A stretch of 40,045 bases of DNA, from the NCBI GenBank assembly GCA_017506175.1, contig JAFVNW010000051.1, positions 1 to 40,045 on the forward strand, read 5' to 3'. The notes under the pieces were generated by a model. That model ran no database searches, had not been told where the DNA came from, and was given only the letters and a program-made list of their open reading frames with translations. Within the stretch, counting starts at the first letter, position 1. Every line of letters begins with the position of its first letter. The stretch comes from Bacteroidales bacterium. Its GTDB lineage: Bacteria; Bacteroidota; Bacteroidia; Bacteroidales; WCHB1-69. Below are positions 1 to 21,058 of the stretch, piece by piece. A program made the position numbers and the translations under genes.

Positions 1-603
1 GACGGTGAACTTGATTTTATCATTTTTCTCCCCAATTTTGTAATTATTTTCACCTAACGCTTTTGTTGCTTTATCCTTAAAATCTAGTAATTCAGAATTG
101 TTTATTGCTAACTTCACCGTGAATTTCTTTTTTTGGGGGGGAAATCTAAAAGAGAGAAAAACCAATACCACTACCACTATGATGACCGAAAGTGTGCCCC
201 CAAGCACCCACTCTCGCCACAATGACTTGGTTGCTGGGGGAGGTGTTTTTTTCCCAACAATGTACACACTAATGTTGCCTTCATCGACAACCAGCATTAA
301 GGTGTCGTTGGTCTGCTGAATGGAGTCCTTAAGAAAATATTTACGCCCTACGGAGTCCGTTTGAATGGTTAACTTGCGCAACTCTTTCTTCTCAAGTTCG
401 CAGAATTTAAAAATGGCAGTGTCTTTCTTATTATAGATAGTCCCTCCATTCTTGTTCCTTATCACATACGAAGTATCAGCGATTTCCTCTATTCTAATGG
501 TGTCGTTTAAAGATAATGTATCTTTTCGCTGAGGAGAGCCATCCTGACAGAATGCCGCAAGGGGCAGGAGCAAAAGCAAAAGAGCAAAGATATTCTTTTT
601 CAT
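1..603 (-). CDS. Signal-peptide, single-pass membrane protein of the vWA/kinase operon (3' end outside window)
   Basis: The frame is open from an ATG at 603 to the window edge, giving 201 codons with no stop. The product begins with a signal peptide (MKKNIFALLLLLL, ending near AAFCQ). About 110 polar residues follow, presumably periplasmic. A proline patch (KKTPPPATKS) precedes a strong transmembrane helix rich in I, V and L, and a lysine-rich segment then opens a probable cytoplasmic domain. It starts 27 bp after the Hsp70-like gene stops, on the same strand, so it is very likely the next gene of the operon. Just after the membrane helix the coding strand has a C7-A7-G tract containing the slippery heptamer A-AAA-AAG in frame. 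I do not recognise the family. The layout resembles the 774-residue vWA protein upstream (signal peptide, periplasmic part, one helix, cytoplasmic part). Confidence 0.75.
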   Translation of the reverse strand, partial: MKKNIFALLLLLLPLAAFCQDGSPQRKDTLSLNDTIRIEEIADTSYVIRNKNGGTIYNKKDTAIFKFCELEKKELRKLTIQTDSVGRKYFLKDSIQQTNDTLMLVVDEGNISVYIVGKKTPPPATKSLWREWVLGGTLSVIIVVVVLVFLSFRFPPQKKKFTVKLAINNSELLDFKDKATKALGENNYKIGEKNDKIKFTV

Positions 604-630
604 TTCTACAATGTTTTTAAAATATTTGGT

Positions 631-3207
631 TTAGAACACGTTTAAGTCAATATTGTCTTGATCTACCTTGGGAGTTGGCCCACTCGGACCGTTTGAGGGT
701 TGTGGGGAATTTCCGGTATTGGCCGCGGGATTGACAGTACCGCTGGAAGCAGTATGTCCACTTCCAGTTGGAGCTGTATGTGCACCTCCGCCATTATCAA
801 CACCATCGAAATGAATCGGATGGTACTTTACCGGAAACATTGTCATACGAATAAGCATTCTTCTTTTGTTGTTTACTGCTACCCCTACAGCGGCATCGGG
901 AAGCATAGGAGCAAACGACAGATTATTGTAACCAATGTAGTAATGGTTGCCCCTCTGCGTTGTTTCAGTAAATCCAGTCCAGAAGTTAGATTGTTCAAAC
1001 ATTTCATTTGTGGTGTCAAGACGATTCATGCAGCATAAGTCTGAATTGTAGTTGACGCAAAGGTCATGGCTGGCAAAGAGAACGGAAACAGCTTTCATAC
1101 TATATCCTTGCAAACATGCTTCTCTCAAGTTCTTTTTGCTTTCCCAGTCAATTTTATTAAGAGGCCACACTCCCTTCAATTTTTTGTTTAAGCGATAAAG
1201 CAGGGACGTAATGAGGGAGACATTTGCTCCAAAGACATCTCTATAGGGGGCGATGGCGGTGATAAAAGCCTTTTTGAGTGGTTCAAACAAAAAGGACCTG
1301 CCGTTGAAAATCACGAAGTCAATCTGGTTGGTCAACGGGCTTTCCCTATCAACAAAAATCAGGTCTTTGATAATGGACTCGGCGATGATTTTGCACACCC
1401 ATTCCACTTCTTTGACATCATCGCCTGTCATACTTGTCCTACTGTTCCCGTCCCAAGCCCACTTGGAAATACATTGCAGACCTGTCGCATGCTTGGTCGG
1501 GAGGTTTTGATAATCTGGTTCGGCAGAACCTCCCAATTCATTGACAATTCCAGTGGCAGTCTCGCCAAAGCAGGAAAAGACATTAGCGGTTGTAGCTCCG
1601 TTCCCTTCTGACATATATTCCTTTTTCAAGGTTTCCACGATGAGCATCATTGAATTTTGGCGAACAGGGGGCACAGATTCTATCATTTTCATAAAACGAT
1701 GAATGAAGGTCGGCTCATTAACTGTGATGGTTGCCCCAAGTTCAGCTGCATGATGGAAAACCTGGCGGGCAAACACACGGGCGAACACATAGTCGATAGC
1801 ACCACCCGCACCAACGATTCCTCCTCTTTTTAAAGAAACCATATCATTGTTGGTGTTGTTGGTTGCTTGGGAGTCAAAGCGGACGATGGAATAGTCTGTT
1901 GTCCCCTTGCCTGCATCAATAATCAGGAAAACGTCCTTTTGTCTCGGGTTAGAGACATTTTCTATCATCTCTCTAAGGATGGTATTCCTTCCATCAGCTG
2001 TCAGTACATGTTTAATACCAACAAAGGCAGAGTCACTTTCCGAAATCACCCGGAAGTCATACCTGATAGCATTGGGGGCTTGGTTTTTGTTCATCATGTT
2101 GTTCAAGTTGTAGAGCAACATGTCAATGTTTTGCTGGGAGTAGATATTGGGAACCAGAAGCAAAATGCTGAAGTATCTGTTGCCGTTGATAAGGTGGGCG
2201 GTGGAAGCAGTGATGATTGTATCGTAAATGGCAGATAGAACCTTTAATAAATGTTCTTGGTTGGTAATGGCATATCTGCTAAGGTCACCACGAGCATTTT
2301 TCTTACCATCCGTAAAAGCAATGTCAGACACGGTTTCAGCAACATACGCCTCGGACATGTGCGCATAGAGCATCTTGATATTGATGATTTTTTGGGAGAA
2401 GGGTTGTTCTTTCATCCAAGTATTGGTTCCTTGGCTCGGATTGGCATTCATGGCTGCTGCCGAGACGTTCAAATAGTTGATAAATGTTTGGGAATCGTTG
2501 ATGTCTGTTTCAACATTTCCTAATACACCGTTCTCCTCTTTTCGGAAAGTTATATTGCCTGTTTTGAAGAAATTCGGGTTCGCTTTTTCCACCTGAAGGA
2601 ACATGGGTTCGCCATTTGCTGGGCGCTTGTTCAAATCAGAGTAACTCCTTGATGTATTGTATGCAGTCTTTAGGTTATCAACAATATTTATTCCCTGTAC
2701 GCCAACGCCTGCAAGATTATTGTAGTAATTGACCTGAGTGGCGTCAGATCCAAGGTCGGCGTTGATTCGCAGTACAGGCTGCTGGACTTTGGGTTTCACA
2801 ATGTGTATTTTCCCATCATAGGGTATTTCATTGCCGTTAACAACATGTGTTATAGAAAAGTTTATAGGACCATCAAATACACCTACAGATATTCTGTACT
2901 CGTAAAAGCCTCCACTATGAATAGGCGTTAAAAGGATAGTGTTCCCATTTGCATCCGTCATTGTAACTTTCAGAAAGTTGTTTTCGCCTTCATCCTCATA
3001 ATCAACCCCATATAAACATCCATCCGTATCAATCAATTGAACTTCGTCTGGAATCTTAAAGAGTGGCACATTGGAATTTCCGGGATTTGTAATGACAACG
3101 CGGTTCTCCAGATAGCTCTTTTTCTCATTGTCGTCCAATAGATGAATGATAACAATACGCTCGGACTGGTTCTGTCCGACAATAATCGGAAAGTGGTAAC
3201 TGCTCAT
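631..3207 (-). CDS. Hsp70/actin-fold ATPase with N-terminal extension and disordered tail
   Basis: This 858-residue protein carries the landmarks of the Hsp70/actin nucleotide fold. There is a phosphate-1-like DLGSDATQV (about 151-159), a connect-like ISESDSAFVGI (388-398), a phosphate-2 motif DAGKGTTDYSIV (431-442) and an adenosine-type loop FVIFNGRSFLFEPL (631-644). About 145 residues precede the fold; they look beta-rich and Ig-like, which is inference. The last 50 residues are rich in G, S, T, N and P and probably disordered. No typical Hsp70 substrate-binding domain is evident. There is no signal peptide, so it should be cytoplasmic. A decayed IS982 element lies immediately upstream and separates it from the rest of the operon. 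The E. coli Hsp70-like gene yegD sits beside the yegI kinase, which is a suggestive parallel. Fold call fairly sure, function unknown. Confidence 0.75.
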   Translation of the reverse strand: MSSYHFPIIVGQNQSERIVIIHLLDDNEKKSYLENRVVITNPGNSNVPLFKIPDEVQLIDTDGCLYGVDYEDEGENNFLKVTMTDANGNTILLTPIHSGGFYEYRISVGVFDGPINFSITHVVNGNEIPYDGKIHIVKPKVQQPVLRINADLGSDATQVNYYNNLAGVGVQGINIVDNLKTAYNTSRSYSDLNKRPANGEPMFLQVEKANPNFFKTGNITFRKEENGVLGNVETDINDSQTFINYLNVSAAAMNANPSQGTNTWMKEQPFSQKIINIKMLYAHMSEAYVAETVSDIAFTDGKKNARGDLSRYAITNQEHLLKVLSAIYDTIITASTAHLINGNRYFSILLLVPNIYSQQNIDMLLYNLNNMMNKNQAPNAIRYDFRVISESDSAFVGIKHVLTADGRNTILREMIENVSNPRQKDVFLIIDAGKGTTDYSIVRFDSQATNNTNNDMVSLKRGGIVGAGGAIDYVFARVFARQVFHHAAELGATITVNEPTFIHRFMKMIESVPPVRQNSMMLIVETLKKEYMSEGNGATTANVFSCFGETATGIVNELGGSAEPDYQNLPTKHATGLQCISKWAWDGNSRTSMTGDDVKEVEWVCKIIAESIIKDLIFVDRESPLTNQIDFVIFNGRSFLFEPLKKAFITAIAPYRDVFGANVSLITSLLYRLNKKLKGVWPLNKIDWESKKNLREACLQGYSMKAVSVLFASHDLCVNYNSDLCCMNRLDTTNEMFEQSNFWTGFTETTQRGNHYYIGYNNLSFAPMLPDAAVGVAVNNKRRMLIRMTMFPVKYHPIHFDGVDNGGGAHTAPTGSGHTASSGTVNPAANTGNSPQPSNGPSGPTPKVDQDNIDLNVF

Positions 3208-3232
3208 TTTTAATTTTTTGTTTTTGGGGCTT

Positions 3233-4048
3233 ACCCGTTGACGGAATTAAATCAGTGCGTATTTAACTCTGTCAATCGGTTTGTTATAGATATAATTAAA
3301 GTATTGAGTAATAGCCTGCGCACTGATTTTGCCGACAATACGGGCAAATAGGCAATTACTTTGTTTTGCATAATTTCTCATAACCATATATTGGTCTGTT
3401 AGTTGAGGGAAGTTTGTCTCAACTCTCTTTCTCGCTTTCACAAAAGGTTTGAAAATTGGCTTCTGGTTCAGATGGTAGGGACATTCAAGACGTATGTTGG
3501 AGGTTACAAATAGGTCAAGCTGGATATCTACGCTGATATAGGCCTTGTTCCCGAAGATGCTACAATTGCTGTATACGGGCTTTATGTCATTCAGATAATG
3601 GATGTCATGGACACTCGCCTTTGAGAGATCATAGGAATGTATGCCCCCGCTTAATCCGCACAGTTCGTGCAACTTACAACCAAAGTAGTAGGTGTTTTGC
3701 GAGGCACAGAATCCGGAATCAGGTGCTGTCGAGAAGTCATCCTTCCCCATCTTGCACCTTTTTCCCCGTGAGGTTCGGCATACGGGGATGGGGTTGGAGT
3801 CCACAAGGTCTGAAAATTTCGGTATCACACCTCTGCGTGGTACGTCTCCGAAATCATTGACCAAATTAGTTGAGATTTTTTTGCAGGTTTCAAAAATTTT
3901 TGCGGATTTTGCAGCGAAGTTGTACATGATTGAAAATAGTATTTTGACAGTCTTTTCAACCGCTAAAATTCTAAAATTCAATAAATCGCACAACTTTTTA
4001 TTCATTTATTTATCAACATTTTTGCTCAAATCAATTCCTCCAACGAGT
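3233..4048 (-). mobile_element. Decayed IS982-family insertion sequence with imperfect terminal inverted repeats
   Basis: A transposase remnant is bounded by matching ends: ACCCGTTGACGGAATTA at 3233-3249 and the reverse complement of 4032-4048, which reads ACTCGTTGGAGGAATTG. The two agree at 13 of 17 positions. The element is about 816 bp, shorter than my recollection of intact IS982 elements (about 1 kb), consistent with the internal deletion in its transposase. I found no convincing target-site duplication. It lies between the large vWA gene and the Hsp70-like gene and may interrupt operon transcription or supply a promoter for the genes downstream. Confidence 0.75.
3247..4005 (-). pseudogene. 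IS982-family DDE transposase, internally deleted and catalytically altered
   Basis: The C-terminal two thirds match the IS982 DDE pattern as I know it: VDSNPIPVCR (68-77), GFCASQNTYYFGCKLH, CSIFGNKAYIS (148-158) and ARKRVETNFPQL (191-202). In intact relatives the segment after IPKFSDL continues for roughly 70-80 residues before reaching the first catalytic Asp. Here IPKFSDL (61-67) runs straight into VDSNPIP, so an in-frame internal deletion is inferred. The second catalytic Asp, expected in FGDxGYI, is Asn153. The homologous part probably begins at Met27 (position 3927). The reading frame is otherwise open, but the enzyme should be inactive. It could still be moved in trans if an intact relative exists elsewhere in the genome. 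Confidence 0.7.
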
Positions 4049-4083
4049 TATTTGATTTTTTAAATTTATAATCAAATGTCTTA

Positions 4084-6408
4084 TTAATTGATTTTATTCA
4101 AATGAACTGAGTAATAGGCAGTTCCCTCTGCAGAAGGTTCGGGGTGTCCGTAGGAGAAATTCTTTTCCTCATCCAATAGTCTGATGGAGTCAGAGCCGAA
4201 GAATGCCAAGGTGCTGGACTTGAAGTTTTTGGGGGCGTATCTGATCATGGTAGGATCAGCTAATCCCCATTCATCCCGGAATACGAGTTTTTCATACCCT
4301 GTCGGCATGTTTTTCAGAATCATTTTCTCTCGCGGGAAAAGAGGTATGAGCTTGCTGACAAGGCTGAGTTTGCCGTCGGCAAACGGGGAATATACCATGC
4401 GGGTTTTCCCTCGCTTGAGCAGAAAGAGGTAGCTCAGCATCGGGGAGACATCCACCTGTATAGTCTGCTCCTTGTTGGGGTCGGTGGAATTGGTTCCCAT
4501 ATATCCTGCCTTCTGCTTTTCGCTTTTCAACACGCGGCGAGCCACTTCAAGCAACCGGGCTATTGCTACCGTCTTCTTTCTTTCATTCTTTGTTTTTTCG
4601 AATAAGCACATCAGCGAATAGCGGAGGAAAATGCGGTTGGAAGAGTTTTGGCTGTTGAGGTCGAAAATGTTTAGAACAGCGTAGTCGCCGTTATTTTTTG
4701 TGTAAATAATATTGACTACTACGTTGTTTCGGACAGATACAATTTTGTCGGCGTTCTTTTCGTAGTAGGAGCTCAGCATTTCAAGATTGTGCTTTTGCAG
4801 GAGGGGGATTTTCTTCTGTTGCGTGATGCTCCGTTGGGATTGAAACCTGATAATGAGGGTGTGGGATAGACGGTTAGAGTATGAGAAGTGTATAGTGTCG
4901 CCGTTTTGGAACCCATTTTCATTTTCAAAACGCAGTTGACGATCCGAATTGTTTGTTGGCGGTACGTCCTCCTGGTACATGCCCGAGAGGAGTTTTCCAA
5001 GCCACCATGTTTTTATCAGTAGTAATCCCTGTCCCGGTTTTGTAGCATTATTATCCTCTGTTATAGAAATTCCTTTGCCTTTATAGAAGAAGGCATTTGT
5101 TTTGTTCATCTCGCTGCATCCCACTGTCGCAATTGTATAATCGTCGTATTTCAGCTTGTTCATCGCTTTTCGCCGGATGCTCCAGCATTTTCCGTTGACG
5201 AAGACTCGCAGAACAACCATGTTGCGCCAGAGAAGGATGAATAGGGTCGACAGCAAGAGAATGATGATTGCGGAAGCTAACAGTTTTTTCCCTATCGCTT
5301 TGGTCTCTGCACTCAAAAAGTTTTGAGGCATTGCCCCTTTAAAATCAACGTTGCGGGGGCGGATATTGAGGATGCGGTCTTGGTAATTTTCTTGGTAAAA
5401 ACCCTCTACTGAGATGCTGTTTCCCAATGCATTTCCGTATGATTTGTCATAATTCACCCTAATTTCATCCCCAGGGTACAGGTATTGGTTTACCTGAATT
5501 TCATGTCCATTGACCATGCAGGAACTAATGTAGGCAAACACTACAGAGGTGTCATCGCAGTTCAAGACGAAAGAGATAGAGTTTTCATGAAAATCTGCCA
5601 CTGCTATCAGTGAGTCGGCGGGAAACACACGTTCGGGATTGTCGTTCTGATAGGTGACATATTCGGTTAGATAGATACGGGGTTGAGCCTTGCTATAGGT
5701 TTCAAGTTCAACGAACTTGCCTGCTTTTCGGGAAGTGAAGTCAAACTCGCTACAGGCCACGGAAGGAAGGATCTCATTATAGCGGTTGAAGTTCTTGGGT
5801 GCCCATTTCCTCATCCATTTGTAGTCCTGCATCCACTGGTCGTTGACATCTCCATCATCGGTAATAAGGATATGGTAGATTTTCCGGTATTGGGAGAAGT
5901 CGAAATGCTCGACTTCTGTCAGTTCATAGATGGATAACGGGCGTACTAAAGATGTGAAGGACATGTCGTATCGGAACAAATCCTTGTTTTTGCAAAGGTA
6001 GCGGACTCGGGAAATCAAATCCTCAAAACCATTCGCGAAAAATGTCCGGAGAATTAGGTCTTTCACGATATCAGAACCGTCATCGTAAAATTTTACGTTG
6101 GTTTTACCCAAACCGTTTCGAGCCACCATCCAGCCCTTGTCCGTACCTGACCACTGGAGGACAAAGGTGTCGTCTTCGTTATTCGCCCCGTGGTTTTCCA
6201 TCAGTCGGCGCAATTGCTGATAAACTGTGGGCAATCCTGGGCACTCCTTGGCATCAATCATTGACCTGGACATGTCCATCGTTACTATCCACAAATCGGG
6301 CAGGGAATCCTTGGGTTGCGGTCTTGCTAACTCATCCAGTATCTGCTGAGCGGAAGCGCCATTTATCAAGAAAAGGGCGAGAAGGAACAAAGAAAATATT
6401 TTTTTCAT
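4084..6408 (-). CDS. Large secreted/membrane vWA-domain protein
   Basis: This 774-residue protein begins with a signal peptide (MKKIFSLFLLALFLINGASAQ). A von Willebrand A domain follows: DLWIVTMDMSRSM (38-50) holds the DxSxS MIDAS motif and LITDDGDVND (181-190) the later Asp cluster, so metal binding is likely conserved. A beta-rich stretch (about 240-360) leads to one membrane helix (about 376-394), then basic residues and about 370 residues that should be cytoplasmic. The vWA domain therefore faces the periplasm while the C-terminal half can meet the cytoplasmic kinase, phosphatase and small vWA proteins encoded upstream. It starts 51 bp after the second small vWA gene. The decayed IS lies after its stop. 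vWA domain and topology are well supported; the C-terminal half is unrecognised. Confidence 0.75.
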   Translation of the reverse strand: MKKIFSLFLLALFLINGASAQQILDELARPQPKDSLPDLWIVTMDMSRSMIDAKECPGLPTVYQQLRRLMENHGANNEDDTFVLQWSGTDKGWMVARNGLGKTNVKFYDDGSDIVKDLILRTFFANGFEDLISRVRYLCKNKDLFRYDMSFTSLVRPLSIYELTEVEHFDFSQYRKIYHILITDDGDVNDQWMQDYKWMRKWAPKNFNRYNEILPSVACSEFDFTSRKAGKFVELETYSKAQPRIYLTEYVTYQNDNPERVFPADSLIAVADFHENSISFVLNCDDTSVVFAYISSCMVNGHEIQVNQYLYPGDEIRVNYDKSYGNALGNSISVEGFYQENYQDRILNIRPRNVDFKGAMPQNFLSAETKAIGKKLLASAIIILLLSTLFILLWRNMVVLRVFVNGKCWSIRRKAMNKLKYDDYTIATVGCSEMNKTNAFFYKGKGISITEDNNATKPGQGLLLIKTWWLGKLLSGMYQEDVPPTNNSDRQLRFENENGFQNGDTIHFSYSNRLSHTLIIRFQSQRSITQQKKIPLLQKHNLEMLSSYYEKNADKIVSVRNNVVVNIIYTKNNGDYAVLNIFDLNSQNSSNRIFLRYSLMCLFEKTKNERKKTVAIARLLEVARRVLKSEKQKAGYMGTNSTDPNKEQTIQVDVSPMLSYLFLLKRGKTRMVYSPFADGKLSLVSKLIPLFPREKMILKNMPTGYEKLVFRDEWGLADPTMIRYAPKNFKSSTLAFFGSDSIRLLDEEKNFSYGHPEPSAEGTAYYSVHLNKIN

Positions 6409-6459
6409 TAGGTTCTAGTCAATAATAAATAGTTGTAATAAAAGGAAATGTGAAAAAAT

Positions 6460-7053
6460 TTATGCCGGGCGACTCACGCTTTGGGAAACTATGTCGATTA
6501 CTTTCGCGAAGGAAGCGGAGTCGAAGTCACTCAAGGTGATGGTCTGTCCGGTGGAGCCTACAATTTCTTTAAGTTGTTCAACGTATGAGCGGTATTGACC
6601 GCCAGTTGCGACAAAAGCCGTGACATTCTGGCATTTGGCAAACCGAGCATGAACTTTTTCGAGAATAGCATGGTAGTTCCCTCTTGATTCTCCACCGTCT
6701 GAGAAGATGACGACAACGGGTTTATAGTCTCCCTTTTGTTCCAACTTGACATTAGTGGCAACAATTTCCCGGTCCATGCATTCCAGCAACAGGTTAAGGC
6801 CTGCTTCCAGGTTGGTCCATCCGAAGGCCTTGATGGTAGGGAGCTGGACATCCAATAGACTGGTCAGGGGCAGGACTTGTTCTGCTTCTGTGTTGAACGT
6901 GATGATGCTGATGCAACTGACTTCCATTGCGATTGGGTCAGCGCGTAGTGTTTTTACGATGGAAGCCAGTCCTTCGTTCACAGCGCCTATTTTGTTGGCG
7001 CCGGTCATTGAACGGGAAGTGTCAATGAGGAAATATATGGGTAGTCGTCTCAT
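6460..7053 (-). CDS. Small vWA protein, TerY/YegL-like (second copy)
   Basis: A 197-residue protein that is almost entirely a vWA domain. The start MRRLPIYFLIDTSRSM places the MIDAS DxSxS at 11-15, the MIDAS Thr is probably T80 (GWTNL), and VVVIFSDGGES (113-123) supplies the last metal-binding segment. It has no signal peptide or membrane helix, so it is cytoplasmic. The opening matches the first gene of the operon (MRRAPVYLLIDTSGSM), so the two are clear paralogues, though this one lacks the proline-rich C-terminal tail. Its ATG overlaps the stop of the DA1-type protease gene by 4 nt (ATGA), which implies translational coupling and suggests the two proteins work together. Family known from TerY-P and yegI-K-L loci; the binding partner is inferred. 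Confidence 0.85.
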   Translation of the reverse strand: MRRLPIYFLIDTSRSMTGANKIGAVNEGLASIVKTLRADPIAMEVSCISIITFNTEAEQVLPLTSLLDVQLPTIKAFGWTNLEAGLNLLLECMDREIVATNVKLEQKGDYKPVVVIFSDGGESRGNYHAILEKVHARFAKCQNVTAFVATGGQYRSYVEQLKEIVGSTGQTITLSDFDSASFAKVIDIVSQSVSRPA

Positions 7054-7787
7054 TTTGGTATCCTTTTGTTTCTCAATATGTTTTCAATATATTTTTTCCA
7101 ACCCATGTTCTGGAGGATCTGTTTTTGTTCCAAGAACTTGGTACCGTAGTAATAGTCTGAATTTTCGTTGGTCCACTTGCGCAGTTTTGCAGCGAATTCA
7201 CTGCCGCGAATAGCCGCATAGTAGTTTTGCACAAGTGCTTTGCCGATGTTGCAGAATCCCTCTTCCGATTCACTCTCTTCAATTCCGTTGTAGTGCAACC
7301 AAAAATGAAGTATCTCGTGTGCGAGGGTCCCTTCAAAAACCATCTTCGGCAGGCCGTGGTGTATATAGATTTTTGCCGTGGTGGTTTCGGGGTGGTCCAC
7401 AAGAAACTGGGAGCAGCATAGTCCCTGCGCACCGGGATACTTTTTCTCCATTTCTGTCTGTGTCACAAGCGAAACGGAAATTTTGCCGTGAGGAATGTTG
7501 AATCCCGCCTTGGCAAGAAGATTGAGGACAAAGTCAGCGGACTTCTTGACCTGTTCCTTGTTAACTACACTGGTTTCCTGGCACAAACCGCAAACATAGC
7601 GCCCGTCGGCCAGATTGAAGCCTATCTGTTTGGTAATAGGCGAATAGGAGGAGTATTTGCCAATGAAACGGAAACAGGAACAGCACGAAATATGCTCGTG
7701 AGATAGGCAAGCAGGATTGTCCCATGGATCGAGCAAGTATTTCCCAGAAATGGTCTTTCCACAAATAACACAGGTGATTTTATCCAT
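7050..7787 (-). CDS. LIM-like zinc domain plus DA1-type metallopeptidase
   Basis: This 245-residue protein opens with a zinc-binding region resembling a LIM domain: CVIC at 6-9, His30, cysteines at 35, 36 and 38, and CGLC at 66-69. A peptidase core follows, with GTLAHEILHFWLHYNG (153-168) containing the HExxH zinc motif as HEILH (157-161) and a downstream EEGFCN (175-180) that likely gives the third ligand. LIM followed by HExxH and an EEG-C motif is the arrangement of the DA1 family, best known as ubiquitin-regulated plant peptidases. There is no signal peptide. The gene starts 24 bp after the upstream membrane-protein gene and overlaps the next vWA gene by 4 nt. A role in proteolytic output of the phospho-signalling system is inference. 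Confidence 0.8.
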   Translation of the reverse strand: MDKITCVICGKTISGKYLLDPWDNPACLSHEHISCCSCFRFIGKYSSYSPITKQIGFNLADGRYVCGLCQETSVVNKEQVKKSADFVLNLLAKAGFNIPHGKISVSLVTQTEMEKKYPGAQGLCCSQFLVDHPETTTAKIYIHHGLPKMVFEGTLAHEILHFWLHYNGIEESESEEGFCNIGKALVQNYYAAIRGSEFAAKLRKWTNENSDYYYGTKFLEQKQILQNMGWKKYIENILRNKRIPK

Positions 7788-7811
7788 TTTAATCCATTTT
7801 GAATCAGTGAG

Positions 7812-8567
7812 TTATTGAGAAACAAAAGACCAGCAACCATGTTTTTTGTCCTGTCCTACCAGTTTGATTTTTCCTTTTTTTGTCTTCTCTATCTCAAGAG
7901 AAGGACCGTCGTGCAGCGAGAGTCTGTTGTTTTTGATTTTTGCAATGCTTTCATACTTTGTGGGCTCATATACGTACTTAACCACGATGTTCAGTCTATT
8001 TTCTTCTTTGTAGCTAATGGAAAGTTGGCATTCTTCGGTTTGTCCTTCCATGGCGATAGTACCTGCGTATTGTCGGCACAAGTCGGATTGTGTCCAGGCT
8101 CCATTGTCATTGCAACGAATGATGAATATGAAAAAAATTGCTGCGACCACCGCTACAGCAAAAAATGAAAGTACGACAAACCGCTTATTCTGTGGCGTCA
8201 AAGAGCGATTAGGAATAGACGAAGGGGACTTTGATGGAGAGAGACTGACAAGACTATTCTTTCGACCGGATAGAAAAAGAGCAATTCCCGTCAGGGTTGC
8301 AGCCTTCTTGTGGGGACTGCCAGCAGCGACAAATTGATTGTAAATGTTCTGCACTAGGTTTTCAAAGCTGTCTTGCGGGTGCGTGGCGCAATAGGAGACG
8401 GCATGGATAAACAGAGGATTTGTAAGGGCTTCTAGCAGTTTGCGATCGTGGAGATAGTCGTAGAAAATACCGCTTAAAACCGCCGGTTCCCATGTGTCAA
8501 GACGTAGGATACATTTCCTTAAATTATTCAGTTGTTCTTTTGTATTTTCCATAAATTCAGGAATCAA
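7812..8567 (-). CDS. Single-pass membrane protein of the kinase operon
   Basis: A 251-residue protein without a signal peptide. The N-terminal 125 or so residues are helical and polar, then Ser-rich (SLSPSKSPSSIPNRS), a plausible target for the neighbouring kinase. One membrane helix (RFVVLSFFAVAVVAAIFFIFII) follows, and the last 100 residues are beta-rich and probably periplasmic, ending in KKHGCWSFVSQ. The orientation is likely N-in, C-out. It begins 8 bp after the kinase stop codon; Met6 (8552) is an equally possible start. I do not recognise the family. Position and topology suggest it links cytoplasmic kinase or phosphatase activity to the envelope, which is inference. Confidence 0.65.
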   Translation of the reverse strand: MIPEFMENTKEQLNNLRKCILRLDTWEPAVLSGIFYDYLHDRKLLEALTNPLFIHAVSYCATHPQDSFENLVQNIYNQFVAAGSPHKKAATLTGIALFLSGRKNSLVSLSPSKSPSSIPNRSLTPQNKRFVVLSFFAVAVVAAIFFIFIIRCNDNGAWTQSDLCRQYAGTIAMEGQTEECQLSISYKEENRLNIVVKYVYEPTKYESIAKIKNNRLSLHDGPSLEIEKTKKGKIKLVGQDKKHGCWSFVSQ

Positions 8568-8575
8568 TGAAAATA

Positions 8576-10015
8576 CTATATGAATTTTGTCTTGAGTTGC
8601 ATACCATTTGCTTCTCCATTTTCAAGAATCATGCCTTCCTTGAGGACGATGGCTTCGCCTGGTTTCAGTTGTTTTGAACTCTGGTTGTCTGTAACGGTGA
8701 AGCTGGGCAAGCCGATGTTCTTGAAATACCATGCTCCGTTGTACCATTGGAGGCCTGCGACAGAGGGGACATCCTTTTTCTGGATTTTTTCACTATAATA
8801 TATGTTGTCGAAAAAATGCCATTTATGAAGGGATTTGTTCTCGCCGCCATACACTTGCTTGTTGTAAAAGACCCATTCGTTTTTGTTGTTGCGGTGGAAG
8901 AGGTCAAAAACGGGAAGCGGTTGGGAGATGGTTTGTCCGCAGAAGGGACATCGTTTGACCTTGTTCAGTACGAAAAATTTCTCAGAACAATTAGGATTGG
9001 CACACCGCACAATGCGCTCGTAGGTGTTCCATAGAGCGTTTTCCCATTGGGAGGCGCTGGGGCGGGCCGACGGGTTATGTAAACCTTCTTCGAATGCCTT
9101 TTGGAAAAGAGGAATTAGATAGGGCCCAGCAATCGTGTAGGGGACCTTGTCAACATCTGACCAGTCAACAGGGGTGTATCCTTCAGGTTTCGGTTTATTT
9201 GACGGATCACGGCGGTCTTCTATGAACAATGCTTTTTCTCCATACGAGAGAAAGTCGTCCAAAGTGGCATCCTCATTGTGGATTTTCCTCCCGAGGAGAG
9301 GATCACGGCAGAAAAGATACTGGTATATCAGGCACGCTAGTGCGTGGAGATCTGTCTGCTGGGACGGAAGAACATTGGGGTTCACTATGACCTCGGGGGC
9401 GATAAAACCTTGTGTTCCGAGCACGCCGGCGGGATATTTGCCGGGAACTACAAGTTCGTCCACATCAATCACCTGTACCTTTCCATTGGAGGGATTGAGC
9501 AACACATTGTTGAACGAGAGATCGGAATGGCAGAGTCCTGCTGCATGTAGTCTCCTGATCGTGCGGGCAAGGTTATAGGCGCAAAAGAGCATGTTCCGCC
9601 AGTTCCCTCGTTCAGAGGGATCTATTGTCTTCCTTATGGATGGTTTTGTAAACCAGTTGCCTTTTTTTTCAATGCCCTTTTTGTCTCCTGCCTGGAAGAT
9701 AAAGTCAGATGGATACAGCGGCATCACAATGCCATATTTTCCTTTGGGAGACTTGACAATGTCGTATGGCCAGCAGAAGTGTTCTTTCCACACATTACCT
9801 CCTTCCATGTTGAATAAATCGTTGTAATATTTCTGCACTAGGTCTTTCAAACGGTCCATGGATACTTGGTCAGGGTCTTTCTTGTAAATGGCAACCACGT
9901 AACTGTTGTCAGGAGAAAAGAAGACATTCTTTTTCGTCCCACTGCCCCGAACTTCTAACTTGACAGGGTATTTTTTTTCGGGATGAATGATGGATATTAA
10001 TTCTATGGTTGACAT
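8576..10015 (-). CDS. Ser/Thr protein kinase with zinc ribbon and possible FHA-like tail (YegI/TerY-P type)
   Basis: A 479-residue protein. The kinase domain occupies about 20-330: a short glycine-containing loop (RGSGTKKN, 23-30), a probable ATP lysine in VVAIYKK (40-46), catalytic loop HSDLSFNN (163-170, Asp165), DVDE (184-187) where DFG is usual, APEV (206-209) and an invariant-type Asp222. The divergent DFG position has been seen in other bacterial atypical kinases, so activity remains likely. Next comes a zinc ribbon, CANPNC (338-343) and CPFC (356-359). The last 100 residues end in a beta-rich piece (GEAIVLKEGMIL) that may be FHA-like. No membrane helix is seen. It lies 11 bp after the PP2C gene, the expected antagonistic pair. 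Kinase call firm, FHA call tentative. Confidence 0.85.
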   Translation of the reverse strand: MSTIELISIIHPEKKYPVKLEVRGSGTKKNVFFSPDNSYVVAIYKKDPDQVSMDRLKDLVQKYYNDLFNMEGGNVWKEHFCWPYDIVKSPKGKYGIVMPLYPSDFIFQAGDKKGIEKKGNWFTKPSIRKTIDPSERGNWRNMLFCAYNLARTIRRLHAAGLCHSDLSFNNVLLNPSNGKVQVIDVDELVVPGKYPAGVLGTQGFIAPEVIVNPNVLPSQQTDLHALACLIYQYLFCRDPLLGRKIHNEDATLDDFLSYGEKALFIEDRRDPSNKPKPEGYTPVDWSDVDKVPYTIAGPYLIPLFQKAFEEGLHNPSARPSASQWENALWNTYERIVRCANPNCSEKFFVLNKVKRCPFCGQTISQPLPVFDLFHRNNKNEWVFYNKQVYGGENKSLHKWHFFDNIYYSEKIQKKDVPSVAGLQWYNGAWYFKNIGLPSFTVTDNQSSKQLKPGEAIVLKEGMILENGEANGMQLKTKFI

Positions 10016-10026
10016 AGTAGATTTAT

Positions 10027-11523
10027 TTATTTGTACTTAATGATTGTCATTGTTTTGTCATCGTGCTCTTGAACGGTATAGTAGTCCAGCCATTCGCAGA
10101 TTTCCGCAGCCGGTAGCAGGTTTCCCTTTTCATTGCAGATTTCGGAAATCAGTTGTTTCCATATTTGGAGATCGGCCAGCGATTTGTCTTTGAAATAGCT
10201 GTCGGTAATTCCGTCTGTCATGGAAATGATGATGGGTTTGACTGGGCAGAGGTAGATTTTAATGCGGTTGACCAGTTCAGCGACGTTGCCGAAGATGGAA
10301 TCAGAAGTCACAAATAGGGTTTCTCCGGGGAAGGCCCCTCCGTCGGGAGAACCGAGCGCGTACAGGTTATCGTCAGCTATCGCCACCGTTATACCATCCC
10401 CCACTTGGAAGGAGGCGCAGAACCACCACATTTCTGAAGCCTGCATGGAGAAAGTGAGCAGCGCAGTGGTGTTGTACTTTTTCAACGGCATCTGGCTATC
10501 GGCTGCCAGTTTTTCCAGCTGCTTGCACCCGTGGTAGGCCGCGGCAGGAAGAATCTCGTAGAGGCACTTGATCAGACTATGGTGCTGGCGGCATGCTGTC
10601 AGGTTGAATTGAGCCTCCTGCAACATATCCAGTATTCGTTTTTTTCGTTCAATCAAAAGCCTGACGAACTCCTGACCTGCGCTTTGGCAAAAAACTTTTG
10701 AGCCTGTGCTCGACAATTCAGCAGAGCCGGCACCGTCAGCCACCACTGAAAAAAAGATACCGTCCATAGAGTGGATATAGAAGTCATCGTCACGATAGGT
10801 TCCCTTGTTGGCGTGCGAACGTCCCCTGTAGCTGACCCCCACCATATCAACTTGGGGAGACAGGATGGCTTTGTAGTCCTTGTCTGTCTTCACCTTTTGG
10901 TCGGAAGGGATGTCCTTCCATAATGTGCGGGGATCGGCATTGACATAGCAAAAGAACTTACAGATTCTGTCAGGTAGTTCCACCTCCACCCACCAATCTC
11001 GGGATGTCAGTGGAATCCCTTTGACGACCATTTCTTCTGGATAGAAGAGGAGGTCGCCTTGATTATCGGAGTAGGTCACGGAAATGAGACACTCCTGCCG
11101 GATGAATGCATCAACGTCAAAGAGGTATTCTGTGCCGCACTTGGCATTGGCAATCGGGATCTCTTCCCTGCTTTTTTCAACCGAAGTTATTGGAATATCG
11201 GTTTGACTCCCGGGGTCAGTAGCCAATGGAACTTCATCCGTCTCCTGGGGGACTTCGTTGTTCATTTCAGTGGAGGAAGAACCATTCTCTATGGAGATAT
11301 TTTCTTCTCCAGATTTCTTCCCATCCTCCCAATCCCTATTGCCTTCACCCTCAGCTTTCGTTTCGGGATTCTCATCCTTTGGCATTACCGGTTCAATGGA
11401 GGGGCTTTCGTTCTCAGGGACATTGACGGACTCCATATCTTGGGTAGGGGCGGGACATGATCCACCCTCACCTGACGGGAAGCATGAGTCCGTACAGGAA
11501 GACAAATCCGATTCTTTATTCAT
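10027..11523 (-). CDS. PP2C-type Ser/Thr phosphatase with long acidic N-terminus (YegK/TerY-P type)
   Basis: A 498-residue protein if started at the ATG at 11523; an in-frame GTG at 11553 would add 10 residues. The first 120 residues are rich in E, P, S and D and probably disordered. A small domain follows at about 130-215, and the PP2C fold begins near 225. Landmarks are RGRSHANKG, RDDDF (244-248), VVADGAGSA (260-268), SMTDGITDS (434-442) and a late DDKTM, which supply the expected metal-binding aspartates. It should be cytoplasmic and reverse phosphorylation by the kinase encoded 11 bp downstream. Together with the vWA gene upstream this makes the classic vWA-phosphatase-kinase triad. Catalytic family firm; the start codon is uncertain. 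Confidence 0.85.
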   Translation of the reverse strand: MNKESDLSSCTDSCFPSGEGGSCPAPTQDMESVNVPENESPSIEPVMPKDENPETKAEGEGNRDWEDGKKSGEENISIENGSSSTEMNNEVPQETDEVPLATDPGSQTDIPITSVEKSREEIPIANAKCGTEYLFDVDAFIRQECLISVTYSDNQGDLLFYPEEMVVKGIPLTSRDWWVEVELPDRICKFFCYVNADPRTLWKDIPSDQKVKTDKDYKAILSPQVDMVGVSYRGRSHANKGTYRDDDFYIHSMDGIFFSVVADGAGSAELSSTGSKVFCQSAGQEFVRLLIERKKRILDMLQEAQFNLTACRQHHSLIKCLYEILPAAAYHGCKQLEKLAADSQMPLKKYNTTALLTFSMQASEMWWFCASFQVGDGITVAIADDNLYALGSPDGGAFPGETLFVTSDSIFGNVAELVNRIKIYLCPVKPIIISMTDGITDSYFKDKSLADLQIWKQLISEICNEKGNLLPAAEICEWLDYYTVQEHDDKTMTIIKYK

Positions 11524-11571
11524 GATTTTTCTGAAAAAATTGGTCAAACACACAGTGGAAATGACTTTAGC

Positions 11572-12246
11572 CTACAAGAACAGTTCATCATCTGGATTGA
11601 AATTAGGGAGAGGGGGGAGCTCTCCCAACGGAATGTCATCGCCGGGACGGTGGTCACCCTGGACACCGATGCTGCGGCTTGCACTTTGGGAAACCCACTG
11701 AAAGAATCTTTGGAAGGAACGGGGGTCGGCAGAAGAGAGGAAGATAACGTATTCATTTTTGCCCGTGATTTTACTCAATGTAGGAATCACCCTTTCATCT
11801 GAAGAAGTGGTGCCGGCCACAAAATACGTTATTTTCTTTCTATTCAATCGGTTAATAGCCTCCTGCAGTTCTGATTCCTTGTCAGTGGGCATGCCATCCG
11901 TAAAAATCATCACAAATGCCTTATAATCACCCTTCTCTTCGCCTCTATTGGGAACGATGTCCTGTTCAAGCAGTTCATTCAGTTTGTCAAGAGCGGCAAC
12001 GTAGGACGTGCACCCGTGTATCGTGAAGTCGGGGACAGTAGGAATTTCCTGAACAGAAGTCAGCGGCATCGCCACAGATGCGGTGTCCGAAAAAGTAACA
12101 ATGCTGACGTGTGCTTTTTCCAAGCTCTCTGGATCTGAGCGCAAAGTGTCAATACAAGTTTTAATGCCGTTCTGAACAGCAATGATGGATTCTCCGGCCA
12201 TGGAACCAGAGGTGTCAATTAATAGATAAACGGGTGCTCTTCTCAT
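11572..12246 (-). CDS. TerY/YegL-like vWA protein, first gene of the operon
   Basis: A 224-residue protein beginning MRRAPVYLLIDTSGSM, with the DxSxS MIDAS motif at 11-15, MIDAS Thr80 (GCTSY) and VMIFTDG (112-118). The fold fills residues 1-190; a proline- and acid-rich tail (DIPLGELPPLPNFNPDDELFL) follows. No export signal is present. TerY-like vWA proteins accompany a PP2C phosphatase and a kinase in many bacteria (for example E. coli yegL with yegK and yegI), and the same order occurs here. The start at 12246 fits the alignment with the second small vWA protein at 7053. A 530-bp non-coding stretch with a structured RNA lies upstream, making this the first gene of the transcription unit. 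Confidence 0.88.
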   Translation of the reverse strand: MRRAPVYLLIDTSGSMAGESIIAVQNGIKTCIDTLRSDPESLEKAHVSIVTFSDTASVAMPLTSVQEIPTVPDFTIHGCTSYVAALDKLNELLEQDIVPNRGEEKGDYKAFVMIFTDGMPTDKESELQEAINRLNRKKITYFVAGTTSSDERVIPTLSKITGKNEYVIFLSSADPRSFQRFFQWVSQSASRSIGVQGDHRPGDDIPLGELPPLPNFNPDDELFL

Positions 12247-12314
12247 AATTTATCAATATTTGTTTAATGATTATTTGAAATGTACTATTAAAATTTTCTC
12301 TTCTTCACAAGCAC

Positions 12315-12478
12315 AAAAAAAGCGCAAACCGAATTGATGTCATTCTGTCTGGCTCTGGAAAACCAAGGATGCAACTTCAATTAAGCTTACGCTGGCGCAT
12401 AAGCATCAATCTTTACCTTGCATTCCTTTTTTTGAATTTTCCAGATTCGACAGAATAAGATAAAGCTAACGCTTTGTT
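12315..12478 (-). ncRNA. Candidate rod-like structured RNA or operon leader with U-tract end
   Basis: The minus strand folds into a long hairpin by direct inspection: ATTCTGTC/GACAGAAT (12449-12456 with 12342-12349), TCTGGAAAA/TTTTCCAGA (12437-12445 with 12354-12362), AAGGAATGCAA/TTGCATCCTT with one bulge (12418-12428 with 12365-12374) and an apical GCTTATGC/GCGTAAGC (12397-12404 with 12385-12392). The apical mismatch is a G-U pair only on the minus strand. An outer stem AAAGCG/CGCTTT (12470-12475 with 12319-12324) runs into seven U residues (12321-12315), like an intrinsic terminator. TATTTTTG at 12491-12484 could start it. It may be a free small RNA (6S-like in size) or an attenuating leader of the operon. 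A palindromic mobile repeat is the alternative. Confidence 0.5.
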
Positions 12479-12483
12479 TTGTA

Positions 12484-12491
12484 CAAAAATA
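12484..12491 (-). promoter_or_regulatory. Putative -7 box TATTTTTG upstream of the structured leader
   Basis: The minus strand reads TATTTTTG, matching the Bacteroidota -7 consensus TAnnTTTG. Predicted transcription starts about six bases on, at the 5' edge of the structured RNA and about 230 nt before the first vWA gene. No -33 TTTG is visible at the usual spacing. A second TATTTTTG on the same strand at 12587-12580 is an alternative. Confidence 0.4.
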
Positions 12492-12728
12492 AGAACCTTT
12501 CGCTCAACATATTCCACTATAGTCCAACGATGTTGAGGCTAATGTAGCAACAGAGTATTATGAGTGCGAAATGAGGGTGCAAAAATAGTAATTTTTTCCG
12601 ATTATTATAACATTGGTGTGTGAAAAGAGCAAATTCACTTCCCCAACAGCAGCAACAGTTAGAAGTTGTACCACTTTTCAGAAAAAAATTTTGACTTTAA
12701 CGCCGACTACAGCTATGTCTTGAAATAC

Positions 12729-18424: not shown

Positions 18425-21058
18425 TTGAAAATAAGAAAATTGACCAAACATATACGACATTTCTGGATTCTCATCGCAATAATTCTTTGTTGTTCAATGA
18501 GTTATGCACAAGTTGTCGTTTCATCCCAAGATAGCGTCACGGGCATAGCCGTTGACTATTCCAACCCGCAGACGTACGAAATCGGGGGCATCACCACCTC
18601 TGGAAGCGCTGGCTTGGACCAGAGACTTCTTCCCTTCCATGTGGGCGAAGAAATTGAAATCCCAGGAGATAAAATTTCAGAAACCATCAAAAAACTTTGG
18701 AACACAGGCATTTACGAAGACATCAGAATCTCCGTGACCAAAGTCATCGGCACCACCGTCTTTTTGGACATCTACTTGGAAGACCGCTCACGCCTGGCTG
18801 CCTTCGCCTTTGTGGGCGCGAAGAAAAACGAAGAGACCGAACTCCGTCAGAAAATCAAGATTTCGCAGGGCAACATCGTCAATGACAACATGAAGACGAC
18901 CTGCATCAACATGATCAAGGAGTATTACGTTGACAAAGGTTATTATAATTGCGACGTTACAGTGAGCGAGCGCCCCGACGAAAAGCTCACCCGCGCAGTC
19001 AACCTCTATTTCAACATCAACAAAGGCAAGAAAATCAAAATCGAGCGCATCAACTTCATCAACAACAACCAAGTTTCCAATGCCGTGCTGCTCAAATCGA
19101 TGAAAGAGACCAAGGAGCGTTTCCACTTCACCCCGTTCTGGAAAGCCGACACCGTCATCGCCTACATGTTCAAGCATCCCGACTACTACCGCTCCAAAGA
19201 CATCCTTGAGCACCTCGGCGACTACTTTGCAGGGCGCGTCAACTTCCACATTTTCAAGGGTTCCAAGTTCATTAAAAGCTCCTACGAGAGCGACAAGGGC
19301 AAGCTCATCGAGAAATACAACGAACTCGGTTTCCGCGACGCATACATCGTGAAAGACAGTTTCTACGTCAAGGGCAACCTCGCCTATATCGACATCACCG
19401 TGGACGAGGGGCCGCGCTACTATTTCCGCAACATCGACTTCGTGGGCAACACCAAATACTCCAGCGACGTGCTTCACCAGGTGCTGAACATTGAAAAGGG
19501 CGATGTTTACAACCAGAAACGAATGATGGAGAACATCAGCATGAACCAAGACGGCAACGACATCAGCTCCCTGTACATGAACGACGGCTACCTCTTCTTC
19601 TATGCCAACCCCACCGAAGTGCTGATTGAAAACGACTCCATTGACATCGAAATCCGCATCCGCGAAGGACAGCAGGCCACCTACAACAAAATCTCCGTCA
19701 CCGGCAACACCAAGACCAACGACAACGTGATTCTGCGCGAAGTGACCACCTTGCCAGGGCAACTATTCAACCGCGCCGACATCATCCGTTCCCAACAAGT
19801 TCTGCTTTCCCTCGGCTACTTCAATCAAGAGAAGATGGACGTGCGCCCGACACCGAACGAGGCCGACGGAACCGTTGACATCGAATATGTGGTGGAAGAG
19901 ACCTCCTCCGACCAGTTCGAACTTTCCGCCGGCTACGGCGCCACCGGTTTGGTACTCAGCGCGGGGATTTCCTTCAACAATTTCTCTTTCAAGAAGTTAT
20001 TCAAGAAGGATGCTTGGAAACCCATCCCCTCCGGCGACGGACAAAAACTGTCGCTCAAAATCTCCACCAACGCCGTCTGGTACCAGTCATACAGCCTTTC
20101 GTTCGTAGAACCATGGCTCGGTGGCAAAAAGCCAAACACCCTCTCCGCATCCGTCTATTACCAGAAGCAAACCAACGGCTACACCAAAAAAAACGATGCC
20201 TACGCCGCCATTGACATTATGGGCGCGAACCTCACCTTTGCCAAGAAGCTCAAGTGGCCCGACGACTATTTCCAACTCTCGCACAGCATCATCTACCAAT
20301 ACTACCGCGTGAAGAATTACGGCAGCATCTTCATCTTCAGCAACGGATACGCAAACAACATCAGCTACAAGTTCACTATCCAACGCAATTCGGTCAGCGC
20401 CCCGATTTATCCCCGCGAAGGTTCCGAAATCACCTTCTCGGTTCAGGCAACACCGCCCTACTCCCTCTTCACGAAAACTGATTACACCACCGCCACCGAA
20501 CAAGAGAAATACAAGTTCCTTGAATTCCATAAATGGAAATTCAACGTTTCATGGTTTACTAAAATCGTTGACAATCTGGTACTTAACGTAAGACTAAAGA
20601 CCGGATTCATCGGCTGGTACAACAAAAACATCGGCGCGCCCCCATTCGAACGCTTCTATCTGGGTGGCGACGGGCTCTCCAGCTGGGCTCTCGACGGCCG
20701 CGAAATCATCGGCATGCGCGGTTACGACGACAGCGCCCTGACCCCCATGCAAAACGGCGAATATGTGGGCGGCACCATCTTCAATAAATTCACAGCCGAA
20801 CTCCGCTACCCCATCACGCTCAACCCCAGCGCCACCATCTATGTACTCGGCTTCGTGGAAGCTGGCAACTCATGGCTCGACAAACGCAAGTACACCCCCT
20901 TCAACCTCTATAAATCAGCCGGTCTCGGCATCCGAATCTACCTGCCTATGTTCGGCCTGCTCGGCTTCGACTGGGGATACGGCTTCGACCCCGTGCCCGG
21001 ACAGAAAGACGCCGCCGGCAGCCGCTTCCACATCTCCATCAACCAATCAATCGACTAA
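18425..21058 (+). CDS. bamA: BamA/Omp85 outer-membrane assembly factor
   Basis: An 877-residue protein with a signal-anchor-like start ending CCSMSYAQ, then serial POTRA domains (for example the FVGAKKNEETELRQKI, FVGNTKYSSDVLHQVLNIEKGDVYN and VTGNTKTNDNVILREVTTLPGQLFN boundaries), then a C-terminal beta barrel with the family landmarks GGDGLSSW, MRGYDD and a closing GFDWGYGFDP. It inserts barrel proteins into the outer membrane and is essential in relatives. No ATG precedes the signal peptide: candidates are TTG at 18425 or TTG at 18440. An in-frame TAA at 18407 rules out a longer form apart from rare starts such as ATT. Three skp-like chaperone genes follow, a functional pairing. Confidence 0.92.
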   Translation: MKIRKLTKHIRHFWILIAIILCCSMSYAQVVVSSQDSVTGIAVDYSNPQTYEIGGITTSGSAGLDQRLLPFHVGEEIEIPGDKISETIKKLWNTGIYEDIRISVTKVIGTTVFLDIYLEDRSRLAAFAFVGAKKNEETELRQKIKISQGNIVNDNMKTTCINMIKEYYVDKGYYNCDVTVSERPDEKLTRAVNLYFNINKGKKIKIERINFINNNQVSNAVLLKSMKETKERFHFTPFWKADTVIAYMFKHPDYYRSKDILEHLGDYFAGRVNFHIFKGSKFIKSSYESDKGKLIEKYNELGFRDAYIVKDSFYVKGNLAYIDITVDEGPRYYFRNIDFVGNTKYSSDVLHQVLNIEKGDVYNQKRMMENISMNQDGNDISSLYMNDGYLFFYANPTEVLIENDSIDIEIRIREGQQATYNKISVTGNTKTNDNVILREVTTLPGQLFNRADIIRSQQVLLSLGYFNQEKMDVRPTPNEADGTVDIEYVVEETSSDQFELSAGYGATGLVLSAGISFNNFSFKKLFKKDAWKPIPSGDGQKLSLKISTNAVWYQSYSLSFVEPWLGGKKPNTLSASVYYQKQTNGYTKKNDAYAAIDIMGANLTFAKKLKWPDDYFQLSHSIIYQYYRVKNYGSIFIFSNGYANNISYKFTIQRNSVSAPIYPREGSEITFSVQATPPYSLFTKTDYTTATEQEKYKFLEFHKWKFNVSWFTKIVDNLVLNVRLKTGFIGWYNKNIGAPPFERFYLGGDGLSSWALDGREIIGMRGYDDSALTPMQNGEYVGGTIFNKFTAELRYPITLNPSATIYVLGFVEAGNSWLDKRKYTPFNLYKSAGLGIRIYLPMFGLLGFDWGYGFDPVPGQKDAAGSRFHISINQSID

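Follow-up and report, generated by a model that had tools for sequence, protein, structure and literature searches.

The window analysed here, 40,045 nucleotides (nt) from a Bacteroidales bacterium (assembly GCA_017506175.1), is one whole contig (JAFVNW010000051.1, here C9) of a 2.46-Mb metagenome-assembled genome (MAG) that is 91.09% complete. Positions 1-12246 hold a minus-strand gene cluster headed by a highly divergent version of a three-gene phosphorylation switch of known type, the TerY-P triad (Table 1). Counting an IS982 transposase ORF, the cluster consists of ten open reading frames (ORFs), which run from position 12246 towards position 1 in the order vWA1, PP2C phosphatase, kinase, TM251, DA1 metallopeptidase, vWA2, M774, IS982 ORF, putative ATPase and TM201. 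The first seven genes, from vWA1 to M774, are separated by 18, 11, 8, 24, -4 and 51 nt and contain no broken frame; the 876-bp gap between M774 and the ATPase gene holds the transposase ORF, and TM201 follows the ATPase gene after 27 nt. The original prediction described nine closely packed, intact genes on one strand, of which the open frames (found in all cluster ORFs), the minus strand and the close spacing stand, but the ninth gene is cut by the contig end and the IS982 ORF had been overlooked. Because C9 is the window itself and ends inside TM201, this ninth gene does not qualify as intact, and further genes of the operon may follow. The presence of the triad and the tight packing of the first seven genes are more than chance.

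Table 1. Features of the cluster and of its leader (TM, transmembrane segment; aa, amino acids; MIDAS, metal ion-dependent adhesion site)
Feature	Position	Strand	Description	Support
vWA1	11572..12246	-	TerY-type vWA protein, 224 aa	Pfam VWA 4.3e-17
PP2C	10027..11553	-	phosphatase, 508 aa, N-terminal extension	PP2C_2 4.8e-27
Kinase	8576..10015	-	Ser/Thr-type kinase, 479 aa, C-terminal zinc ribbon and beta-like tail	Pkinase 3.1e-12
TM251	7812..8567	-	cytoplasmic N-part, TM 132-150, C-part	hydropathy; no Pfam match above cut-off
DA1	7050..7787	-	LIM-DA1 metallopeptidase, 245 aa, no signal peptide	Pfam DA1-like 4.9e-7
vWA2	6460..7053	-	TerY-type vWA protein, 197 aa	Pfam VWA 7.1e-10; MIDAS residues kept
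M774	4084..6408	-	774 aa: hydrophobic N-terminus, MIDAS-like region, TM 376-394, C-terminal region; orphan	
IS982 ORF	3247..4005	-	transposase ORF, 252 aa; insertion outside the system	NCBIfam NF033520 1.6e-45
ATPase (putative)	631..3207	-	858 aa, actin/Hsp70-like phosphate-2 motif	motif at 431; relative in genome G120
TM201	1..603	-	hydrophobic N-terminus, TM 133-151, cut by contig end	hydropathy
Leader hairpin	12319..12475	-	long imperfect hairpin in the 5' leader	about 157 nt, then seven U (12321-12315)
TAnnTTTG motif	12484..12491	-	just before the hairpin	second copy 12580-12587

Judged by sequence, the core of the cluster is a TerY-P triad, an already known kind of system, which passages of PMC11090510 describe as a TerY-like vWA protein, a PP2C phosphatase and a kinase with a C-terminal zinc ribbon, and model as a phosphorylation switch. 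All three parts are present in the usual order vWA-PP2C-kinase, and their predicted functional residues are conserved: MIDAS residues D11, S13, S15, T80 and D117 of vWA1 are invariant among ten aligned rows; the metal-binding aspartates D256, D273, D447 and D499 of the PP2C among seven rows that include Escherichia coli PphC; and H163, D165, N170, D184 and D186 of the kinase, together with zinc-ribbon cysteines C338, C343, C356 and C359, among eleven rows. The original prediction of a vWA-PP2C-kinase phospho-switch with a core of known kind is thus upheld by the retained catalytic residues, and its naming of two TerY-like vWA proteins, a PP2C, a zinc-ribbon kinase and a DA1 protease agrees with the Pfam matches and conserved residues.

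The cluster also resembles the E. coli yegL-pphC-yegI genes and yegD, in which vWA, PP2C, kinase and Hsp70-family genes likewise lie side by side. The likeness is uneven: vWA1 is 32% identical to YegL (E 2e-19) and the kinase 22% identical to YegI (E 1e-10), whereas the PP2C matches PphC by blastp only at E 0.79 and the putative ATPase matches YegD at E 0.025 over 55 aa. Moreover, YegI has TM segments and the window kinase none, and the yeg set includes neither a DA1 nor an M774 gene. YegI autophosphorylates and PphC dephosphorylates YegI, as reported in a portion of PMC13232886 that cites other work.

Relatives of the window kinase are widespread, but those of full length and high score are few. 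At E 1e-3 it has matches in 74 of 395 genomes of the phylum, and full-length strong matches (E <1e-90, 40-43% identity) only in its own genome and ten others; within the family, 7 of 104 genomes match, namely its own, G064 (46%), four with a kinase of another kind (27-29%) and one weakly. A scan of genome contigs with an 11-row kinase alignment found at least 588 stretches, at least 426 of them relatives, and the best 80 of the 426 were combined with the ten phylum loci and the G064 locus into a set of 91 kinase loci. Since the scans of genome and viral contigs depend on exact matches of short peptides, only close relatives are visible in them. Fifty of the 80 scan loci span 19 kb or more and 13 fall short of 10 kb, and 41 of the 91 loci are truncated; because many scan loci are short, accessory neighbours could be missed.

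Most of these kinase loci include TerD-like ORFs of the tellurite (Ter) type. Identity of the window kinase lies at 40-46% with members whose loci also contain TerD, TerC and TelA; one of the ten phylum loci has Pfam matches to TerD (twice), TelA, TerY_C and TerC, and the ORF maps of the remaining phylum loci contain vWA-PP2C-kinase runs, one of them cut by the contig end. Among the 91 kinase loci, vWA, PP2C and kinase were all detected in 78, TerD-like ORFs in 64, TerC-like ORFs in 23, a P-type ATPase in 14, TelA in 12 and PrsW in 5. The window departs from this pattern in three respects. TerD (PF02342) has no match in the cluster or in the MAG as a whole, so that within the limits of a 91%-complete MAG the triad lies outside any standard Ter locus; DA1, M774, ATPase and TM genes stand there instead; and the kinase branch is far longer, its end branch in a quick tree of 87 kinases measuring 2.91, the longest of all, against a median of 0.089 and a next longest of 1.09. 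No starred set in that 87-row tree contains the window kinase, which may belong to a lineage that has escaped sampling or may have evolved fast; a branch that long is beyond what a quick tree can place.

The peptidase DA1 lies outside the triad. Like other DA1 family peptidases, it has LIM-type cysteine pairs and an HExxH...E active site: H157, E158, H161 and E176 together with C6, C9, C35, C38, C66 and C69 are invariant in an alignment of the window protein and seven relatives (8 rows). It differs from the family in having one LIM unit, in its predicted cytoplasmic location and in its coupling to a vWA gene, vWA2, with which it overlaps by 4 nt. The seven relatives examined have 333-442 residues, extra LIM repeats and a hydrophobic N-terminus (12-residue maximum 2.15 to 3.36), whereas the window protein begins at its single LIM unit, with the frame closing eight codons upstream, and reaches a 12-residue hydropathy maximum of 1.32 (2.0 is reached by 20% of 1821 ORFs). 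Because the hydrophobic N-terminus of its relatives is missing and the frame is closed upstream, the peptidase is predicted to be cytoplasmic. DA1 relatives occur in 20 of the 395 phylum genomes, its own included (E 0.01); no vWA or PP2C gene was labelled beside them in the longer flanks examined for 7 of the 19 other loci. Searches with DA1 against plasmids, viral contigs and solved structures yielded nothing useful, PHROGs gave weak matches only (best 0.0031), and no TerY-P locus with a DA1 peptidase was found in the open-licence literature searched. Plant DA1, according to passages of PMC5322733, is a latent peptidase with the motif HEMMHX15EE that is activated by ubiquitylation.

TM251, M774 and TM201 are predicted by hydropathy to span the membrane, in agreement with the three membrane-spanning proteins proposed originally. 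M774 had also been proposed as a membrane vWA protein, a description that holds for its TM segment and for a MIDAS-like pattern (DMSRS at 45, ITD ending at 184) but not at the level of families, given that no Pfam model matches even at E 5 and the TerY vWA profile reaches an hhalign probability of 0.1%. The same pattern occurs in 192 of 197 vWA-labelled ORFs, in 9 of 1624 other ORFs and in 43 of 2000 shuffled versions of M774. The N-terminal hydropathy maximum of M774 is 3.12. No relative of M774 was found in plasmids; genome contigs gave 37 pattern stretches and viral contigs 16, none of them related, and comparison with solved structures returned nothing meaningful.

The putative ATPase, proposed originally as Hsp70-fold, retains of that description a phosphate-2-like motif that links it to actin/Hsp70-like ATPases, DAGKGTTD at 431 (pattern DxGxGT[TFS]D; 2 of 20000 shuffles); it has no Pfam family at E 5 and no significant Hsp70 model match, and hhalign against four E. 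coli Hsp70 proteins gives a probability of 31% over 43 columns. Besides its own genome only one of the 395 phylum genomes, G120, passes 1e-3 (19 pass 0.1), and a search of 198 class genomes with a two-row profile recovers 2, which are the profile's own rows. The kinship with the G120 protein, which also has the motif, is well supported: blastp gives 5e-13 over 540 columns, and the score of 62 bits compares with at most 29.6 among 500 shuffles. Searches of plasmids and phages with the window ATPase yielded nothing useful, and viral contigs gave two stretches, none related; the G120 ATPase likewise yielded nothing useful in plasmids, and the ATPase profile nothing meaningful among solved structures. 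In G120 (L171 8892-18076; L173 1073-3573) the ATPase gene is followed after 26 nt by one for a 339-aa protein (moderately hydrophobic N-terminus, 2.12; one TM), next comes a 1828-aa membrane ORF, and three small membrane proteins complete the run. The 1828-aa ORF has no Pfam family but contains, by eye, SxxK- and KTGT-like stretches of a penicillin-binding protein, and the run may be a new wall-linked ATPase module.

The reading that we favour, with a confidence somewhat below even, is that of a divergent TerY-P switch that shares a transcription unit with sensors and outputs of its own. It draws on the triad residues, the packing, the DA1/vWA2 overlap, the membrane segments and the DA1 without export signal, and on the fact that the pair of ATPase and TM protein also occurs in G120 beside a penicillin-binding-like membrane ORF; the varied neighbours of related triads and the published models of TerY-P and of plant DA1 add to it. 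We consider it more probable than not that vWA1 to M774 form one joint unit, and about an even question whether the ATPase pair is a partner of this unit or a neighbour. Our best guess is that a phospho-switch linked to the membrane has both a cytoplasmic DA1 peptidase and an ATPase associated with the envelope under its control. The window itself shows the parts with their conserved residues, and we infer each link between them as follows: the kinase and the PP2C would set opposite phosphorylation states of a shared client; both vWA proteins would act as metal-dependent docking adaptors for client and enzyme, vWA2 being paired with DA1, as the overlapping genes imply; M774 and TM251 would carry the state of the envelope to the cytoplasmic set, the periplasmic cue proposed originally being conjectural; DA1 would be latent until phosphorylation or docking sets it free, much as ubiquitylation does for plant DA1; once released, it would cut one protein and so make the response irreversible; and the ATPase with its TM partner might be a device for assembly or remodelling at the cell wall, linked to the membrane and recruited as a second output. 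It is quite unlikely, in our estimation, that the cluster is an undescribed bacterial signalling system in which an envelope-spanning sensor and the TerY-P pair gate the cytoplasmic DA1, with a vWA protein as docking partner, and also drive an actin-like ATPase anchored in the membrane, whose relative in G120 lies with a penicillin-binding-like protein. Such a system would mirror the plant DA1 switch in a prokaryote, with phosphorylation instead of ubiquitin as the gate. For TerY-P triads, which are widespread, a protease of defined type packed beside the triad offers a concrete candidate client and output; if DA1 activity answers to the kinase and PP2C, the role of the switch becomes testable and a LIM peptidase gated without ubiquitin would be known.

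Several observations weigh against this favoured reading. The whole combination was found in one MAG only, and the recurrence in other genomes expected by the original prediction did not materialize: in the 91 kinase loci, 41 of them truncated, no relatives of TM251, DA1, M774 or the ATPase were found (phmmer E <0.5, in a run that took in 12 further loci, seven DA1 loci among them; blastp 1e-4), and relatives of M774 were confined to its own genome (1 of 104 family genomes, 1 of 395 phylum genomes). TM201 gave one borderline phmmer match among the kinase loci (L114, E 0.01, 41 residues spanning the TM). The vWA nature of M774 and the fold assignment of the ATPase are motif-level. The TM251, ATPase and TM201 genes have a lower G+C (0.426, 0.433 and 0.398) than the triad genes (0.474, 0.490 and 0.461), and the set may therefore be recently assembled. 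One DA1 locus, L080, has a 526-aa ORF about 2.8 kb away with a 25% local match to the kinase (E 7e-7); we took this ORF for an unrelated kinase. A conserved nine-gene island was rejected, given that the accessory genes did not recur in the 91 loci. Lack of recurrence does not show a chance cluster, however, since the kinase stands far apart in the tree and its close relatives may not have been sampled.

The same absence of recurrence, the transposase ORF inside the cluster and the contrast between TerD-like ORFs in 64 of 91 kinase loci and none in the window or MAG would also suit a degenerate or remodelled Ter locus, in which the triad lost TerD, TerC and TelA and came to lie among unrelated neighbours with no joint function. 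We regard this as unlikely, since none of the catalytic residues of the triad is lost, and the first seven genes retain gaps of 8-51 nt and a 4-nt overlap with no broken frame.

The IS982 ORF, which is single-copy in its own MAG, sits between the M774 and ATPase genes, and the proposed link of the Hsp70-like gene to the triad is weakened by this position and by its single recurrence, in G120, without the triad: no vWA, PP2C or kinase of the window's kind is labelled at the G120 locus, where, besides, the 339-aa partner is like TM201 in layout only (blastp E 7.7). The 876-bp break with its transposase ORF, the G120 pair without a triad and the G+C of the ATPase and TM201 genes below that of the triad genes would fit two independent adjacent units, one of the triad, TM251, DA1, vWA2 and M774, the other a wall-related pair of ATPase and TM protein, with IS982 at the joint. 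We rate this a little below even, given that the genes share one strand, that TM251 within the first unit has an equally low G+C and that the pair has only one relative.

A further comparison is with GAP1-N2 DO-GTPase conflict systems, whose neighbourhoods, in the passages of PMC7159879 that treat them, combine kinase-ZnR, PP2C and standalone vWA proteins, with HSP70 in others and with a membrane-bound vWA protein described. These part types recall those of the window, the contig ends inside its last gene, and a peptidase output fits, so that a Bacteroidota-type counterpart of these membrane-near conflict (defence) systems can be envisaged, its missing part lying beyond the contig end. It is nevertheless very unlikely: among the ten cluster ORFs, with the contig ending inside the last, there is no GTPase or GAP1 Pfam match and no specific PADLOC match, and the same passages of PMC7159879 give the themes for other phyla, namely actinobacteria and firmicutes, with the HSP70 and kinase themes non-overlapping. 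A known PADLOC defence system was rejected as an identification, because the kinase matches PD-T4-6 (best 2.8e-9) over about 100 kinase residues only; the ATPase has one weak match to PDC-M61B (E 4.7e-4), and no other strong match was found.

Related triads of the same family adjoin other genes, which suggests that the switch changes outputs. In G064 (L069 3087-13083) the TerY-P triad is followed by genes for a DUF805 protein, a PrsW-type membrane protease and a P-type cation ATPase, and runs related to this locus occur in L103 and L108. The 421-aa kinases of G086, G011, G008 and G070 were considered as relatives and left uncounted, as they belong to another vWA/PP2C/kinase kind (27-29% identity). 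This kinase lies with a PP2C in L070 (10157-17591; G086, same genus), L071 and L072, with a vWA gene in L070; a gene with a peptidoglycan-binding domain follows in L070 and L071, and L070 has two radical-SAM genes. Among 72,556 plasmid records, 2319 contain a relative of the window kinase at E 1e-20; plasmid TerY-P kinases (H1-H18) are annotated as 'lipopolysaccharide kinase InaA family protein', which masks their kinship with the Ter triad.

The leader upstream of vWA1 forms a hairpin that is single-copy in its own genome and may be an attenuator or a small RNA. The fold of 12310-12480 has an energy of -60.9 kcal/mol (z -5.99; none of 200 shuffles as low). Rfam searches of the leader gave no match at gathering score and nothing meaningful at E 5, and a riboswitch of known family was rejected on these grounds; the G064 leader was rejected as a counterpart (z -2.27, 3 of 200 shuffles as low, a different fold). 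The motif TAnnTTTG, which we take to be the Bacteroidota -7 promoter element, occurs twice on the 534-bp leader strand; over the 40-kb window, both strands counted, there are 27 copies (0.34 per kb per strand).

Elsewhere in the window lie recA (25760-26764) and a gene for a POTRA-domain protein (18425-21058), because of which the setting of the cluster looks chromosomal. S46 peptidase and Fib_succ_major genes, which like the TAnnTTTG motifs fit an origin in the Bacteroidota, are also on the contig, the S46 gene preceding the vWA1 leader, and positions 27026-34447 of the minus strand hold a 2473-aa ORF with a 993-aa ORF antisense to it.

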